This document shows positions 7,595 to 38,735 of a stretch of DNA of 64,000 bases, piece by piece. Below the pieces are notes generated by a model. That model was not told the DNA's origin and searched no databases. It worked only from the letters and a program-made list of their open reading frames with translations. Made by a program: the position numbers and the translations under genes. The stretch comes from Haloferula sp. BvORR071 (GTDB taxonomy: Bacteria > Verrucomicrobiota > Verrucomicrobiia > Verrucomicrobiales > Akkermansiaceae). Within the stretch, counting starts at the first letter, position 1, and each line of letters starts with the position of its first letter. The DNA lies in assembly GCF_000739615.1 (NCBI RefSeq), contig NZ_BATP01000021.1:1-64000 (forward strand), in the 5' to 3' direction.

Positions 7595-7897
7595 GTGAGC
7601 CCGCGTCGAAATTTCCCCGATATCCGCGCCCTGAGGAAAGCCATCCAAGGCCGGCGGATCGTGTCCTTCTGGTGCAAGAACAACGCCTTCCGGATCGAGC
7701 CCTATGGATTGCTCCAAGCCAAATGCACCAAGGCCTGGGTCCTCGCCGGGTGGTGCCTGGAGCGGCAGTCGTGGCGCTTCTTCCGCTTCGCCGAACTTCG
7801 GGATGTGGTGATGCAGGAGGAGCGCTTCCCGCTGCGTGACGACTTCCCGATGGAGGTGCCGGACTGCCGGGGCGGCTGGCGGCGGCGGGAGGCTTGA
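7595..7897 (+). CDS. Small stand-alone WYL-domain-like protein
   Basis: This is a 100-aa frame with a GTG start (SPRRNFPDIRALRKAI follows). Its pattern matches a WYL domain: an N-terminal ALRKAIQGRRIVSFWCKN strand-helix, then FRIEPYGLLQ, then AWVLAGWCLERQSWRFFRF (WYL triad read as W-V-L), and ELRDVVMQEERF. WYL domains bind ligands or nucleic acid and usually follow an HTH; here there is no HTH, so it may be a free sensor domain. The start is uncertain and no clear ribosome binding site is visible. A conserved 3-prime element begins directly after the stop codon. Confidence 0.6.
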   Translation: MSPRRNFPDIRALRKAIQGRRIVSFWCKNNAFRIEPYGLLQAKCTKAWVLAGWCLERQSWRFFRFAELRDVVMQEERFPLRDDFPMEVPDCRGGWRRREA

Positions 7898-8104
7898 TGT
7901 CCGATTTTACCCCCATGATCGCGTGATTGGAGTCGGCGCAAAATCGGCCATGATCACTCCCGTAAGCCGAACGGTCCCCCCGCCGCGAGACTTGCAATCC
8001 CCCACCAAACAGACCCGCCCTTCCCCCCCCGAGGACGGAAGCCACCCCCAAGGGAAAACCCGCTGCCTTCGTTCCCCCAAACGGCGTTAGCGGGTTTTTC
8101 TTGT
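7898..8104 (+). ncRNA. Candidate structured 3-prime element A with C-rich-loop terminator (copy 1)
   Basis: This is a non-coding stretch directly after the WYL gene stop, with a diverged second copy after purL (11989-12212). CCGATTTT (7901-7908) can pair with AAAATCGG (7940-7947). The segment CGCAAAATCGGCCATGATC and the following CGTAAGCC are shared with copy 2. The element ends in a terminator: AAAACCCGCT (8055-8064) with AGCGGGTTTT (8089-8098), an inner CGTT/AACG stem with a CCCCCA loop, then a T-rich tail. It may be a 3-prime-UTR-derived small RNA or a dispersed structured terminator. I could not match it to a known RNA family. Confidence 0.5.
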
Positions 8105-8256
8105 ACAGGACAGGCCTCAGCAAAGCACACAACCCACTACATTACAATGTGATAAAGCGACCACCAATGCTCTCTCATGGCATTTCCGGGGACACCCGGC
8201 TTGCCCTCCGGGGGGTGGTAGCTAGCATTCAGCGCCTCCGCAGTCGCTGTCGCCCA

Positions 8257-11200
8257 ATGAACCGCATTTTCGTCGAAAAGAAGCCTGAATTCAACGCCGA
8301 GGCCCGCCACCTCTTGCATGATCTCAAGGAATCGCTCGGACTCCACGGCCTGGCCGGGGTGCGGGTGATCCAGCGCTACGATATCGACGGGCTTTCGGCG
8401 GAGGAATTCTCCCAGGCCGTGAGCCTGATCCTGTCCGAGCCACAAGTGGACCTGACCTACGCCGAACTGGTGCCGGCGGCGGACGAAACGGCCTTCGCCG
8501 TCGAGTATCTGCCGGGACAGTTCGACCAGCGCGCGGACTCCGCGGCACAGTGCGTGCAGATCCTGACCGGCAAGGAGCGCCCGCTGGTCGCCTCCGCAAA
8601 GGTGATCCTACTGAAGGGGGCCTTGTCCGCCGACGACGTGACCCGGGTGAAGGGCTACGTGATTAACGCAGTCGACTCACATGAGGCCGGCATGGCGGTG
8701 CCGCAGAGCCTGCAGCCGGTGATCCATGCGCCGGCGGACGTGGCGGTGCTGAGCAGCTTCACCAGCAAGAGCGCGGAGGAACTCGCCGAGCTGCGCAAGG
8801 AACTGGGCCTGGCGATGTCCGATGCCGACCTTGCCTTCTGCCAAACTTACTTCCGCGATGAGGAGAAGCGGGTGCCGACGATCACGGAGATCCGGATGCT
8901 GGACACCTACTGGTCGGACCACTGCCGCCACACGACCTTCCTGACGAAGATCACCCAGGTGCACTTCGACGACGGCACCGAAGCGATGGTGGCCGCATGG
9001 GACAGCTACATCGCCACGCGCGAAAAGCTCGGCCGCGACGACAAGCCGGTCACGCTGATGGACATCGCGCTGATCGGCATGCGCGAGCTGAAGGCCAGCG
9101 GCGAGCTCGATAACCTGGAAGTCTCCGAGGAAGTGAACGCCGCCTCGATCGTGGTGCCAGTGAGCATCGACGGAAAGCCGGAGGAGGAGTGGCTGGTGAT
9201 GTTCAAGAACGAGACGCACAACCACCCGACCGAGATCGAGCCCTTCGGCGGTGCGGCGACTTGCCTGGGTGGCTGCATCCGCGATCCGCTTTCGGGCCGC
9301 TCCTACGTCTATCAAGCGATGCGCGTGACCGGTGCGGGCAATCCCCTCACCCCCTTCGCCGAGACCCTGCCGGGCAAGCTGCCGCAGAAGAAGATCTGCC
9401 AGATCGCAGCGCACGGTTACTCGTCCTACGGCAACCAGATCGGCCTCGCGACCGGCCAGGTGGCGGAGGTCTATCACCCCGGCTACGTGGCCAAGCGCCT
9501 GGAGATCGGCGCGGTGGTGTCAGCAGCCCCGCGCTCGCAGGTTTTCCGCGGCTCGCCATCGGCGGGCGATGTAATCCTTTTGATCGGCGGTCGCACCGGC
9601 CGCGATGGTGTGGGCGGCGCGACGGGTTCCTCCAAGGAGCACACCGACACTGCACTGGAGAACTCCGCGGAAGTGCAGAAGGGCGATGCGCCGACCGAGC
9701 GCAAAATCCAGCGTCTCTTCCGCAATCCGGAGCTGACCAAGAAAATCAAGATCTGCAACGACTTCGGCGCTGGCGGCGTGTCGGTGGCGATCGGCGAGAT
9801 CGCGCCCTCGCTGGAGATCGATCTGGATGCGGTGCCGAAGAAGTACGAAGGCCTCGACGGCACCGAGCTGGCGATCTCCGAATCCCAGGAGCGCATGGCC
9901 GTGTGCATCGATCCACGCGATGCGGCTTACTTCATCGCGGAGTGCGACAAGGAGAACTTGGAGTGCGTGAAGGTGGCGGATGTCACCGAGACCGGCCGCC
10001 TGCGGATGAAGTGGCGCGGCAAGACAATCGTTGACCTCAGCCGCACCTTCCTGGACACGAACGGTGTGCAGCAGACGGCCGCGGTCCACGTGACCGCACC
10101 ACAGGGCGATTTCCATTCGGCCTTCAAGAGCGTGAGCGCGCCCTACGACCTGCTCGCGGATCTCAACCACTGCTCTCAGAAGGGCCTTGGCGAACGCTTC
10201 GATTCCTCGGTGGGCGCCAACACCATTCTCTGGCCCTTCGGCGGCAAGACCCAGACAACCGCACCGGATGCGATGGTGGCGGGCCTGCCCTTGTTAGAAG
10301 GTGAGACGGACACCTGCACTTACATGAGCTGGGGCTTCAATCCCCACCTCTCCGCATGGTCGCCCTTCCACGGTGCGGTCTACGCGGTGACGGAATCCGT
10401 GTGCAAGGCGGTGGCCGCCGGTGCCGAACTGGCGCAAGTGCGCCTGACCCTGCAGGAGTACTTCCCGAAGCTGGGTGGCGACGCGGTCCGTTGGGGCCTG
10501 CCCTTCGCAGCATTGCTCGGCGCTTGGCATGCACAGCACGGCCTGCGACTCGCCGCGATCGGTGGCAAGGACTCGATGTCCGGCTCCTTCAACGAGTTGG
10601 ATGTGCCGCCGACGCTGGTGTCCTTCGCACTGGCACCGGGCAAGGCAAGCCTCGCGCTGTCGCCTGAGTTCAAGAAGGCCGGCCACATGCTCTCGCTGGT
10701 GACGGTGCCGCGCGATGCCGACCAGCTCCCGAACTTCGCCGAGCTGCGCGAGATCGCCGCCGGGCTGCATGCCGCGAACACTGCGGGTAAGATCATCTCG
10801 ATGAAAGCGCTGGGCTCCGGCGGACTGATGCACGCGTTGGCGCTGTGCAGCTTCGGCAACCAGATCGGCGCGGAGATCACCACGGATGATGATCTCTATA
10901 GCGAGCGCTACTTCAGCTTCTTGGTGGAGCACGTCGATGAGTTGCCGGGGAGCCTCCACTTGCACAGCCGCCTGATCGGCCGGACGCGGGATGGCTGGAA
11001 GATCTCCGTGGGCGGCAAGAGCAACGATGCCGCGCTGCTGATGGAAGATTGGGCCGCCACCCTGGAGCCGATCTATCCGACCATCCCCGACAGCGGCGTG
11101 GGCCGCTGGGACGGTGAGGAGAACAACGGCCAGCTCAGCCTGAACGAGCGCCGCCCGGACCGCCGCAGCGCGGCCCTGCACAAGCTCGGCAAGCCGAAGG

Positions 11201-11988
11201 TGCTGATCCCCGCCTTCCCCGGCACGAACAGCGAATACGATTCCGCGAAGGCCTTCAACGAAGCCGGTGCGGAATCGCAGATCCTGGTCTTCCGCAATCT
11301 CACGCCGCGGCACCTGGAGGAGTCGCTCGAAGCCTTCGCCAAACAGATCCGCGAGTCGCAGATCCTGATGTTCCCCGGTGGCTTCAGCGCAGGCGATGAG
11401 CCGGATGGTTCGGCCAAGTTCATCGCCACCGTGATCCGCAACTCGCGGGTGGCGGATGCGATCATGGACCTGATCAAGAACCGCGAGGGCTTGATCCTCG
11501 GCGTCTGCAACGGCTTCCAGGCACTGATCAAGACCGGCCTGGTGCCCTACGGCGAGATCCGCGATCCGGATGCGAAGGCTCCGACGCTGACCTTCAACAC
11601 CATCGGCCGCCACGTCTCCAGCTTCGTGAATACCCGGATCGTCAGCACCACCTCGCCATGGATGGCGGGAATGACTGCGGGCGACATCCACACGCTGCCG
11701 GTCTCGCACGGCGAAGGCCGCTTCTTGGCCAGCCGCGAGGTGGTCATGGACCTCTCCGCGCACGGGCAGATCGCGACGCAGTATGTGGACCGCGAGGGCA
11801 AGCCCTCGATGCACATCCAGCACAACCCGAACGGCTCGGTCTATGCGATCGAAGGCATCACCAGCCCCTGCGGCAAGGTCTTCGGCAAGATGGCACACAC
11901 CGAACGCAGCGGCGCGCGGATCGCGAAGAACATCCCGGGAGTGAAGGTCCAGCCGATCTTCGCCGCAGGGGTGAAGTGGTTCGCGTGA
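8257..11988 (+). CDS. purL: Phosphoribosylformylglycinamidine synthase, single-chain form
   Basis: This enzyme converts FGAR, glutamine and ATP to FGAM in purine synthesis. The chosen ATG (MNRIFVEKKPEFNAEA) gives 1243 aa, the size of the large single-chain enzyme; the frame extends 52 codons upstream without family similarity. The N-terminal PurS-like domain covers about residues 1-150. The synthase core follows, with TYWSDHCRHTTF and FKNETHNHPTEIEPFGGAAT (ATP/substrate loop) and KICNDFGAGG. The C-terminal class I glutaminase domain begins near KPKVLIPAFPGTNSEYDS, with the nucleophile Cys1084 in GVCNGFQAL. A structured element flanks each end. Confidence 0.97.
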   Translation: MNRIFVEKKPEFNAEARHLLHDLKESLGLHGLAGVRVIQRYDIDGLSAEEFSQAVSLILSEPQVDLTYAELVPAADETAFAVEYLPGQFDQRADSAAQCVQILTGKERPLVASAKVILLKGALSADDVTRVKGYVINAVDSHEAGMAVPQSLQPVIHAPADVAVLSSFTSKSAEELAELRKELGLAMSDADLAFCQTYFRDEEKRVPTITEIRMLDTYWSDHCRHTTFLTKITQVHFDDGTEAMVAAWDSYIATREKLGRDDKPVTLMDIALIGMRELKASGELDNLEVSEEVNAASIVVPVSIDGKPEEEWLVMFKNETHNHPTEIEPFGGAATCLGGCIRDPLSGRSYVYQAMRVTGAGNPLTPFAETLPGKLPQKKICQIAAHGYSSYGNQIGLATGQVAEVYHPGYVAKRLEIGAVVSAAPRSQVFRGSPSAGDVILLIGGRTGRDGVGGATGSSKEHTDTALENSAEVQKGDAPTERKIQRLFRNPELTKKIKICNDFGAGGVSVAIGEIAPSLEIDLDAVPKKYEGLDGTELAISESQERMAVCIDPRDAAYFIAECDKENLECVKVADVTETGRLRMKWRGKTIVDLSRTFLDTNGVQQTAAVHVTAPQGDFHSAFKSVSAPYDLLADLNHCSQKGLGERFDSSVGANTILWPFGGKTQTTAPDAMVAGLPLLEGETDTCTYMSWGFNPHLSAWSPFHGAVYAVTESVCKAVAAGAELAQVRLTLQEYFPKLGGDAVRWGLPFAALLGAWHAQHGLRLAAIGGKDSMSGSFNELDVPPTLVSFALAPGKASLALSPEFKKAGHMLSLVTVPRDADQLPNFAELREIAAGLHAANTAGKIISMKALGSGGLMHALALCSFGNQIGAEITTDDDLYSERYFSFLVEHVDELPGSLHLHSRLIGRTRDGWKISVGGKSNDAALLMEDWAATLEPIYPTIPDSGVGRWDGEENNGQLSLNERRPDRRSAALHKLGKPKVLIPAFPGTNSEYDSAKAFNEAGAESQILVFRNLTPRHLEESLEAFAKQIRESQILMFPGGFSAGDEPDGSAKFIATVIRNSRVADAIMDLIKNREGLILGVCNGFQALIKTGLVPYGEIRDPDAKAPTLTFNTIGRHVSSFVNTRIVSTTSPWMAGMTAGDIHTLPVSHGEGRFLASREVVMDLSAHGQIATQYVDREGKPSMHIQHNPNGSVYAIEGITSPCGKVFGKMAHTERSGARIAKNIPGVKVQPIFAAGVKWFA

Positions 11989-12212
11989 GCTGATTTCTCC
12001 GTCCAGGGGAGAAGGTCCGCCGTCATCGCGTCCCCGCAATGACGTGATGGCGAGACGCCGCAAAATCGGACATGATCTTCCTCGTAAGCCAAGCCGATCC
12101 CCCCGCCGGCCGAGCTTGCGAAACCGACCCAATTCCCCCACCCAAGAAACCCAAAAGGTTCAACCCGCTGCTCGCGTTTCCCCCCGAACGCCTCCAGCGG
12201 GTTTTCCTTTTG
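11989..12212 (+). ncRNA. Candidate structured 3-prime element B with C-rich-loop terminator (copy 2)
   Basis: This is the homologue of the element at 7898-8104 and starts at the nucleotide after the purL stop. GCTGATTT (11989-11996) can pair with AAAATCGG (12062-12069), with G-U compensation relative to copy 1. It shares CGCAAAATCGG.CATGATC, CGTAAGCC and a GATCCCCCCGCCG-type C-rich patch. The terminator is AACCCGCTG (12162-12170) with CAGCGGGTT (12195-12203), an inner GCGTT/AACGC stem with a C-rich loop, then TTCCTTTTGT. At the least it should terminate purL. Confidence 0.5.
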
Positions 12213-12233
12213 TCAGGGGATGCAATGCCGCGC

Positions 12234-12266
12234 AAAAAAAGAAGCCCGGCACTGCTGCCGGGCTTC
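12234..12266 (-). terminator. Intrinsic terminator for the FKBP gene
   Basis: GAAGCCCGGCA (12241-12251) and TGCCGGGCTTC (12256-12266) form a perfect 11-bp stem with loop CTGC. On the minus strand it is followed by seven T (12234-12240). It ends transcription of the FKBP-type isomerase gene. Confidence 0.85.
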
Positions 12267-12311
12267 CGTTAGAACGGGAATCGAGAAGGACTCGCCTTCC
12301 CTAACAGACAA

Positions 12312-12791
12312 TCACTGTCCCTTGATGTCGAGCAGCTCGACTTCGAAGATCAGCGTGGCGTTCGACGGGATCTTCGGCGGACGACCGGCCTCGCCGTAGG
12401 CGAGCTTGCCCGGGATCTCGAACTTGAACTTGTCGCCCTTCACCATGAGCTGCACGCCCTCGGTCCAACCGGGGATCACAGCGTTCAGAGGAAAGCTGGC
12501 CGGCTGCTTGCGCTCCACGGAGCTGTCGAACACTTTGCCGTCCGGGAAGGTGCCATGGTAGTGCACGGTAACTGTGTCGGTGGCCTTCGGGTGGACGGTG
12601 CCGTCGCCCTTCTTGAGGACCCAGTACTTCAGGCCGCTCTTGGTGACGGTGGGCTCATCCTTCTTGGCCTCTTCCTTCTTCTCGGCAGGAGCCTTTTCCT
12701 CCTTCGGCGCGGCGGGAGTTTTTTCGGGCTCTGCCAAGAGCGGCAGGCAGACGGCCGCCAAGGCGGCGAGGGAGAATACGGTGGTCTTCAT
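12312..12791 (-). CDS. FKBP-type peptidyl-prolyl cis-trans isomerase, exported
   Basis: This is a 159-aa protein with a signal peptide (MKTTVFSLAALAAVCLPLLA) and a Lys/Glu/Ala-rich linker at about 22-48. One FKBP domain runs to the C-terminus: VHYHGTFPDGKVFDSSVER, FPLNAVIPGWTEGVQLM, GDKFKFEIPGKLAYGEAG, NATLIFEVELLDI. It should catalyse proline isomerisation of envelope proteins. A paralogue lies directly upstream with about 60-70 percent identity by eye in the FKBP domain. It has its own likely promoter (12822-12851) and terminator, so the two are probably transcribed separately. Confidence 0.95.
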   Translation of the reverse strand: MKTTVFSLAALAAVCLPLLAEPEKTPAAPKEEKAPAEKKEEAKKDEPTVTKSGLKYWVLKKGDGTVHPKATDTVTVHYHGTFPDGKVFDSSVERKQPASFPLNAVIPGWTEGVQLMVKGDKFKFEIPGKLAYGEAGRPPKIPSNATLIFEVELLDIKGQ

Positions 12792-12821
12792 GGTTGCTAG
12801 GTTTCCTAATGGAACAGTGGC

Positions 12822-12851
12822 AGAATCTTCCCCGGCATCGGCCTAGGTCAA
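12822..12851 (-). promoter_or_regulatory. Putative sigma-70 promoter of FKBP gene
   Basis: On the minus strand TTGACC (12846-12851) is followed after 18 nt by GATTCT (12822-12827). This puts transcription start about 24 nt before the ATG. A TTAGGAAA sequence lies between them as a plausible ribosome binding site. Confidence 0.45.
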
Positions 12852-12887
12852 GCCGGGACCTGCCTCCCGCCCATCCTCCTTCTTCCT

Positions 12888-13424
12888 TCAGTTGATCTTC
12901 AGCAGCTCGACCTCGAAGATAAGGGTGCTGTTCGGCGGGATCTGCGGACTTGGGCTCTGCTCGCCGTAGGCGAGATTGGCCGGGATCTCGAAGCGGAATT
13001 TGTCACCCTCCTTCATGAGCTGGAGGCCCTCCGTCCAGCCGGGAATCACGGCATTCAGCGGGAAGGCGGCAGGCTCCTTGCGCTCCACGGAGCTGTCGAA
13101 GACGGTGCCATCCTGCAAGGTGCCATGGTAGTGGACCTTCACCATATCGGTGGCCTTGGGGCTCACGGTGCCGCTGCCCTGCTTGAGGACCTTGTATTTG
13201 AGGCCGCTGGCCGTGGTCTTGGTTTCCTCCCGCGGCGGGCGCTCGCCAGACTTCGCGGAGACTCCTCCGTCGTAGGCCGTGCTGCCATCTGCATTCGGGG
13301 CGGCGCTTTCGGCCGTGTTCGCCGGTGCCGGTGGCGTGATCTTCTCGGCGGCCGACTTGTGGTCATCGCAGGCGGCCACGCAGAACGCGGCGACTGCGGC
13401 GGGGACAAAAGTAAGGCGTTTCAT
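12888..13424 (-). CDS. FKBP-type peptidyl-prolyl cis-trans isomerase, lipoprotein
   Basis: The chosen start is MKRLTFVPAAVAAFCVAACD, which gives a lipoprotein signal with the modified Cys at about residue 19 (VAAC). The protein has 178 aa. A variable linker at about 20-75 is followed by an FKBP domain (VHYHGTLQDGTVFDSSVER, FPLNAVIPGWTEGLQLM, LAYGEQSPSPQIPPN, LIFEVELLKIN). It is a paralogue of the downstream gene, anchored to a membrane where the other is soluble. The frame is open 15 codons further upstream, but that extension has no signal-peptide sense. Confidence 0.94.
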   Translation of the reverse strand: MKRLTFVPAAVAAFCVAACDDHKSAAEKITPPAPANTAESAAPNADGSTAYDGGVSAKSGERPPREETKTTASGLKYKVLKQGSGTVSPKATDMVKVHYHGTLQDGTVFDSSVERKEPAAFPLNAVIPGWTEGLQLMKEGDKFRFEIPANLAYGEQSPSPQIPPNSTLIFEVELLKIN

Positions 13425-13450
13425 CGGTGGTCGGGAAGAATTCAGACCAC

Positions 13451-13479
13451 AAGATCTGCCCGCAACCACCGCGGGTCAA
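13451..13479 (-). promoter_or_regulatory. Putative sigma-70 promoter of lipoprotein FKBP gene
   Basis: TTGACC (13474-13479, minus strand) and GATCTT (13451-13456) are separated by 17 nt. The implied start is about 20 nt before the ATG. The layout matches the promoter of the neighbouring FKBP gene. Confidence 0.45.
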
Positions 13480-38544: not shown

Positions 38545-38735
38545 GGACGAAGTATTCGGGCTCCCGACTGTGAGGTAGCAGCTTTCGCCGTCCCCTCGCC
38601 TCCTTCCCGCCTTCACCCGGACTGGCGTCCGGATTGGCTGTGTGGGAAGTCGTTCATCGGATACCGCAGCGCGACTGCTCCGGGCTCTCACCGGATTCCA
38701 TGCGCCCGCATCGGGTCATCGGCGCGGAGTGAAAA
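38545..38735 (-). ncRNA. Cobalamin (AdoCbl) riboswitch
   Basis: Read on the minus strand, 38699-38662 is the core GGAATCCGGTGAGAGCCCGG followed by AGCAGTCGCGCTGCGGTA, matching the conserved GGGAAUCCGGUGAGAAUCCGG/CGCGC..CUGUA block. 38640-38611 gives AGCCAATCCGGACGCCAGTC with CGGGTGAAG. A B12-box-like AGTCGGGAGCCCGAAT lies at 38569-38554. The order and spacing fit the cobalamin family, and the downstream btuB-like gene supports it. The boundaries are approximate. Confidence 0.88.

Follow-up and report, generated by a model that had tools for sequence, protein, structure and literature searches.

What are the two related stretches of DNA that lie 3′ of the genes ending at 7897 and 11988 in the window (the whole 64,000-nucleotide stretch of Haloferula sp. 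BvORR071 that we analyzed)? The original prediction held that the sequences following the WYL stop and the purL stop are related, and this was borne out: copies 1 and 2 are identical at 138 of 201 aligned bases, and a blastn search of the 7.8 Mb genome with copy 1 as the query recovered copy 2 at an E value of 1.8e-9. The elements predicted to be common to them (CGCAAAATCGG.CATGATC, CGTAAGCC, and C-rich patches) were in place in both copies, as was the proposed two-level terminator (AACCCGCT..CGTT-C5/6-AACG..AGCGGGTT). On the basis of sequence comparison, both stretches are members of a multicopy bacterial small-RNA family with C-rich loops. The features of the locus are as follows.

7595–7897, plus strand: gene for a WYL-domain protein, upstream of copy 1 (GTG start, 100 aa; Pfam PF13280 WYL, E 4.6e-8)
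7897–7908, minus strand: inverted copy of the promoter motif, AAAATCGGACAT, containing CCGATTTT (pattern match on the minus strand)
7913–7927, plus strand: operator of copy 1 (L076), two mismatches to ACGYGATNRCGTRAT (by alignment; center at −39 from model position 1; score 10/14)
7940–7955, plus strand: promoter-like element of copy 1, AAAATCGG-N-CATGAT (match to the pattern AAAATCGGNCAT)
7961–8102, plus strand: small RNA copy 1 (predicted start; match to covariance model R1 at 7958–8105, E 6.5e-22)
8057–8102, plus strand: two-level terminator of copy 1, CCCCC loop (helices 3 and 4 of the covariation structure; sequence)
8257–11988, plus strand: gene between the copies, putative purL as labeled in the original prediction (long ORF ending at 11988; the ATG start at 8257 is our choice)
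12034–12048, plus strand: operator of copy 2, two mismatches to ACGYGATNRCGTRAT (by alignment)
12062–12077, plus strand: promoter-like element of copy 2, AAAATCGGACATGATC (pattern match)
12083–12210, plus strand: small RNA copy 2 (predicted start; R1 match at 12080–12212, E 2.8e-22)
12162–12208, plus strand: two-level terminator of copy 2, CCCCCC loop (helices 3 and 4 of the covariation structure; sequence)

Copy 1 comprises a 5′ hairpin (CGUAAG..CUUGC) with a CCCCCC loop, an internal C-rich hairpin, and the terminator; copy 2 comprises a 5′ hairpin (CGUAAGC..GCUUGCG) with CCCCCC in its loop, a C-rich and unstructured middle, and the terminator. The top operator score of copy 2 (10/14) was located at −54, elsewhere than its aligned operator. 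A simple terminator scan (rule: a stem with a loop of 3–8) listed neither of the two terminators, and a consensus scan for sigma-70 promoters found none. Two similar neighboring ORFs (159 and 193 aa), which we take to resemble FKBP-type isomerases, occupy 12312–13469 on the minus strand, and a cobalamin riboswitch at 38552–38699 on the minus strand is the sole Rfam match at gathering score within the window. The short WYL-domain gene (7595–7897) stands immediately 5′ of copy 1, and a study of the WYL regulator PafBC brings up 6C RNA with regard to RNA as a possible activating ligand (PMC6789036); this juxtaposition is likely a coincidence.

Further homologues were detected in the same genome by blastn, on contigs C37 (two, with 81% and 77% identity) and C60 using copy 1 and on C8 using copy 2. 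The covariance model R1, which covers the RNA only and was built on 24 sequences with the window copies among them, identified six full copies in this genome with E values of 7.3e-12 or better. Copy 1 matched 9 of the 18 genomes of the genus by blastn (E up to 0.01). When R1 was used to search 145 genomes of the family (E up to 1e-3), 20 gave matches. Eleven were among the 18 genomes of the genus and 6 belonged to the genus designated g13; the other 3, outside both genera (L098, L102, and L103), were unconvincing by eye and were not counted. The five matching genomes among 387 of the phylum (E up to 1e-4) were all within the genus. A second model, R2, built from five g13 copies, recovered 34 of the order's 386 genomes (E up to 1e-3): 7 belonged to the genus and 26 to g13, and 1 weak match came from a different family (G187); 20 of its loci were read, others were fetched by place, and the weak matches were partly inspected. 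R2 yielded up to nine matches per genome and added three genus members that R1 had missed (G003, G005, and G009), the G005 match being without a clear operator. The copies occupy differing sites and several are in tandem (G014:C23, G002:C3, G001:C13, and G105:C1). Covariance modeling and genome searching thus placed copies in the Luteolibacter group genus and in one further genus, and the proposal of a structured family with homologues and covariation stands.

None of the window copies was matched by any model of Rfam release 15, 6C RNA included, when the whole window was searched at gathering score. The 6C model also gave no match in 7800–12300 at E values up to 5 or in seven loci of other copies at E values up to 1, and the leads CC0196, ylbH, isrP, and others were all rejected as being below the gathering score. 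Titles and abstract openings retrieved for C-rich decoys, for Verrucomicrobia, and for translation that is leaderless or independent of Shine-Dalgarno sequences likewise mention no sRNA family of this design in Verrucomicrobiota. We regard the family as real and absent from Rfam, with a known kind of loop in a new family, a new phylum, and a new regulatory setting.

Several additional RNAs were observed near this family. A second subtype with the same promoter region has the 5′ sequence CGTAAGGGATAGTTGCACAGCCCCC, the terminator CCCCGGACACTGGAACGGTTCCCCCCTCTAGTGTCCGGGG, and tandem copies; its loci are G000:C16 (L033, two copies), C61:33047 (L034), and L071 in G004. At L246 (C10:157974) and L340 (G008), downstream of the operator lies a strong hairpin (GTAAG..CTTAC or GTAAG..CTTAT) whose loop, CCCTCCCC or CTCCTCCCC, resembles the anti-Shine-Dalgarno core, along with further C-rich hairpins; these two loci likely encode another RNA type. 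Hairpin RNAs rich in C6 at L155 (G010:C8), L161 (G001:C4), and G000:C47 near 82128 are possibly a third type, with no operator (7/14) at L155 and L161. A repeated unit ending in a terminator (GGTGCAGGTGTGGTTCGCC...) is found at contig ends in G000:C44:60-700 and at the end of C45 (L013–L015).

Alignment of 28 copies, together with folding, revealed a typical order in which the operator ACGYGATNRCGTRAT near −42 is followed by a promoter-like element (consensus AAAATCGGNCATGAT) and an RNA of 110–205 nt, for which we infer a start near CGTAAGC. The RNA consists of a 5′ hairpin (consensus GTAAG-(N)-GCCG-CCCCCC-CGGC-CTTGC), zero to four small hairpins (such as GTC-UCCCCCC-GGAC), and the two-level terminator, mostly with a C5–C6 loop. 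Five of the 28 copies, all from G007 and G014, are missing AAAATCGG and retain the operator. For 24 RNAs, the stated structure was paired in 93.7% of cells compared to 33–50% for slid versions. Changes on both sides of a pair were noted for 9 pairs versus 2.4 in shuffles (a level reached in 0 of 500), and further pair types numbered 19 versus 16.6 (19 of 500), with the caveat that the structure was drawn from the same 24 sequences and that their shared ancestry makes the shuffle test look stronger than it is. On its own, RNAalifold predicted 15 pairs, and its covariation term was close to zero (−0.15). Folding against dinucleotide-shuffled sequences gave z −5.6 for copy 2 (0 of 200 shuffles folding as well; z −3.4 without the terminator) and z −2.3 for copy 1 (4 of 200); copy 1 is weakly structured outside the terminator because its z was only −0.9 once the terminator was removed. 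As read from these alignments, covariation supports the helices. The long-range stems that had been suggested, CCGATTTT/AAAATCGG and GCTGATTT/AAAATCGG, fared otherwise: AAAATCGG is situated 5′ of the probable RNA start and the pairing is not conserved, with a complementary 7–8-mer located at most 120 nt upstream in just 4 of the 23 copies possessing the AAAATCGG element (29 copies checked). The CCGATTTT sequence at 7897–7908 is part of the inverted promoter motif.

For the cytosine runs, a total of 70 of 81 RNAs was examined after 11 doubtful or cut RNAs were set aside, and these contained 268 tracts with at least five C (C5+), an average of 3.8 per RNA, with three to five tracts in 63 of the 70. 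Among all tracts of four or more C in the same RNAs, 195 of 296 were exactly six long. At least two C5+ tracts, as in the two stem-loops with about six C that characterize 6C RNA, were present in 69 of the 70. Predicted hairpin loops accounted for 186 of the 268 C5+ tracts, and stems of at least four pairs surrounded 111 of 268 compared to 27 of 307 random six-base loops, the stem sequences themselves being variable. The internal loops of G002 are CUCUCCCC in the three copies examined; therefore, C6 is not absolute.

We derived the operator consensus, TACGYGATCRCGTA, from the earliest alignments and loci. Within 80 nt upstream, 69 of 81 RNA-model matches scored at least 11/14, compared to a single match in either of two control windows (1/81 each), the 81 copies being related, partly in tandem, and hence not independent. 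These represent a subset of the R1 and R2 rows (82 matches, with L105 dropped for its short flank) that left out short-flank loci (e.g., L139, L142, and L149), L098/L102/L103, L097/L101/L112, L147, L156–L158, L162, and rows for which no DNA had been retrieved. In 62 copies, the operator center fell between −38 and −41 relative to model position 1, about −42 from CGTAAG. Of 39 loci fetched by place and scored, 36 reached 11, one of them (L203) having already been seen as L090. With one mismatch allowed, the Haloferula sp. BvORR071 genome contains 36 sites versus 3 for the reversed pattern, and exact sites in the genus numbered 65 versus 0, distributed over 16 of 18 genomes. The search of g13 returned 28 sites, in 5 of 5 genomes, and that of g3, a genus without the RNAs, returned none in its five genomes, with 1 site for the reversed control across these ten genomes. 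The sites at L244, L341, L342, L364, and L370 fall inside a conserved coding sequence, presumably nadB-like, and were excluded as coding coincidences. The geometry, two 5-bp half sites separated by N6 and centered near −42, is like that of CRP/FNR-type sites. A candidate for the factor that binds it is the product of the MarR-type gene located behind the operator. The pattern AAAATCGGNCAT occurs 15 times in the genome versus once when reversed: 7 sites precede RNA copies, 1 is the inverted copy at 7897–7908, and 7 are elsewhere. Because of the upstream operator (69/81), the varied sites, and the tandem arrangements, we hold the earlier suggestion of 3′-UTR-derived RNAs to be less likely, but both window copies do follow a gene on the same strand.

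The operator also precedes protein-coding genes. We read 58 of the 65 exact genus sites, from which 9 had been excluded beforehand (4 RNA copies and 5 coding); the remaining 49 comprised 18 with an ATG ORF assigned by rule and 31 with no qualifying ORF. Of the 18 operator-linked genes, 12 (7 of 10 protein groups) had a C5+ tract in the 45 nt preceding the ATG, compared to 51 of 607 genes of the Haloferula sp. BvORR071 genome (Fisher p 4.6e-9; 4.4e-6 by protein group), where the background is from that genome only and the 18 genes are from several, the gene starts were called by a simple procedure of ours and are probably wrong in places (e.g., L360, L366, and L378), and the single-member groups L250, L358, and L361 may form one protein family. 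The operator-linked groups lacking C5 are L251/L359/L366/L378, L253, and L338. At sites with no qualifying ORF, C-rich leaders were seen by eye at L334, L355, and L374; other such sites had none. A weight-matrix scan of 1.26 Mb of the same genome gave no significant coupling between operator and C5 leader (3/17 versus 45/573, p 0.15) at a threshold score of 8, with just 2 genes above 20.

Nine selected operator-linked proteins were compared to Pfam, of which four (L256, L262, L264, and L268) are encoded behind one-mismatch sites and are outside the 18. Seven matched (MarR, two glycosyltransferases, a borderline N-methylation pilin motif, MBOAT, Wzz, and an autotransporter) and two did not. The MarR-gene leader ends in CATCCCCCC-ATG in all four genes from four genomes; a fifth MarR-like leader (L353) diverges before the ATG. 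The prepilin mRNA contains the hairpin ACCGCA-YCCCCCC-TGCGGT from codon 3 in all four orthologues (L264, L360, L371, and L372), and RNAfold formed this C-loop hairpin in three of the four, L264 being the exception. Third codon positions were identical in 6 of 7 cases in codons 3–9 versus 31 of 137 later (p 0.001, for a range picked post hoc).

The RNA family invites comparison with several known systems. We take RF01066 to be the Rfam accession of the actinobacterial 6C RNA, or B11; GlxR is a CRP-type regulator. 6C RNA is an independent sRNA that owes its name to two stem-loops, typically with six cytosines, and is reported to belong to the GlxR network in Corynebacterium (PMC4046766). The Verrucomicrobiota RNAs are likewise predicted to be independent sRNAs with C6 stem-loops, but they differ in phylum, the lack of an Rfam match, the average of 3.8 C5+ tracts per RNA, the several gene copies, a distinct 5′ domain, and the C runs in operator-linked mRNAs. 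Repression via G tracts has been demonstrated for B11 (PMC10470900). The sX13 RNA of Xanthomonas is described as Hfq-independent with three stems bearing apical C-rich loops, and its repressed mRNAs have G-rich motifs (PMC3771888). Compared by description only, the loops there are C4/C5, whereas here they are mostly C6, often arrayed, and carried by several copies per genome. The cuckoo/mmgR-type RNAs, which are multicopy in alphaproteobacteria and use a C-rich loop as the functional seed, and HPnc5490 of H. pylori, which we take to be RepG, differ from the Verrucomicrobiota family in sequence, structure, and phylum. The latter RNA is described in the same paper as sX13 (PMC3771888). The likeness to both, again by description only, is the C-rich loop as functional seed.

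A fourth comparison is with CsrB/CsrC and RsmY/RsmZ, in which hairpin-loop motifs are arrayed and also occur at mRNA starts, there are often several RNAs per genome, and a shared regulator and surface and biofilm-type genes are involved. The RNAs described here also have a repeated hairpin-loop motif that recurs at the starts of mRNAs, their probable targets; the loop tracts are C runs, mostly of six, rather than GGA, and no homology is claimed. The same C-run motif in the RNAs and the co-regulated mRNAs cannot self-pair, so a common binder is the simplest reading, and this leads to a decoy model. We favor, with a probability of roughly 45%, the view that the RNAs are multivalent, CsrB-like decoys that titrate a putative C6-binding factor. 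The family would then consist of small RNAs with their own transcription and intrinsic termination, each built around a C6-loop hairpin as its functional unit. The palindrome ACGYGATNRCGTRAT near −42 would be bound by a shared transcription factor, which would activate both these RNAs and a set of mRNAs. Many of these mRNAs apparently serve surface functions, and most bear the C-run motif within the leader or, at the start codon, a hairpin with a C6 loop. With typically three to five C5+ tracts per molecule and several gene copies, the RNAs would titrate the C6-binding factor, which in turn would control how C6-marked mRNAs are translated or how stable they are; this would mirror the logic of CsrB/RsmZ versus CsrA with C6 as the motif instead of GGA. 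The transcription start and activation, the C6-binding factor, and the direction of its effect enter this scheme by inference, and we know of no C6-binding protein.

The decoy model was weighed against antisense action of the 6C/sX13 kind, in which the C-rich loops would pair with G runs near the starts of trans targets and block translation, as in the original proposal that such loops pair with G-rich ribosome-binding sites. In design, the loops resemble those of 6C/B11 and sX13, two RNAs with experimentally supported regulation via G-rich mRNA sites, and several separate loops fit several targets. Among 607 predicted genes with their own leader (1.26 Mb of the Haloferula sp. BvORR071 genome), however, the −20 to 0 interval contained G5 in 6 and G6 in none (C6 in 10), no Shine-Dalgarno peak of GGAGG before the ATG was evident in samples from this genome, G132 (g13), or G043 (g3), and the operator-linked genes that so often carry C5 had G5 within −45 to +33 in just 1 of 18. 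Pairing with ribosome sites is thus conceivable but doubtful. We retain the antisense model because G4 sites do exist (32 of the 607 genes in the same interval), avoidance of pairing with the C-loop RNAs could explain the scarcity of G runs at starts, and B11 and sX13 use G-rich sites; we consider it somewhat less probable than the decoy model.

Part of the C-run pattern in operator-linked mRNAs may be background because C runs before the ATG generally outnumber G runs here, and C tracts near starts might even be a general feature of translation in this lineage, with the RNAs titrating or mimicking that site at the ribosome itself. On the basis of one genome sampled per genus, CCCC exceeded GGGG in the −20 to 0 interval for both RNA-bearing genera (84 versus 32 of 607 genes in Haloferula sp. 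BvORR071; 30 versus 5 of 175 in G132) and not for G043, which has no RNA match (8 versus 12 of 175). This ribosome-based explanation is improbable, given that the operator-linked frequency of C5+ leaders lies far above the genome level. Least probable of all, and in our judgment very unlikely, is that the stretches are simply duplicated terminator regions with no regulatory RNA. For several copies the blastn similarity to copy 1 is indeed confined to the terminator part, but the operator lies at a fixed distance, the 5′ hairpin exhibits covariation, and the C6 loops are kept although the second genus has a different terminator stem sequence.

Returning to the decoy model, its extension to a complete Csr-like circuit seems to us only slightly less probable: a single transcription factor may control C6-marked surface, pilus, and polysaccharide mRNAs as well as multicopy C6-loop decoys, with a putative C6-loop-binding protein acting between them, in bacteria that seldom rely on Shine-Dalgarno sequences. 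A candidate regulon is in hand, comprising an operator, RNAs, and mRNAs with one common motif. The results raise the question of how C-rich-loop sRNAs operate in bacteria whose ribosome sites lack G-rich character, and whether control by RNA sponges arose repeatedly, on different motifs. Together with 6C RNA, RNAs with C6 loops would span at least two phyla.
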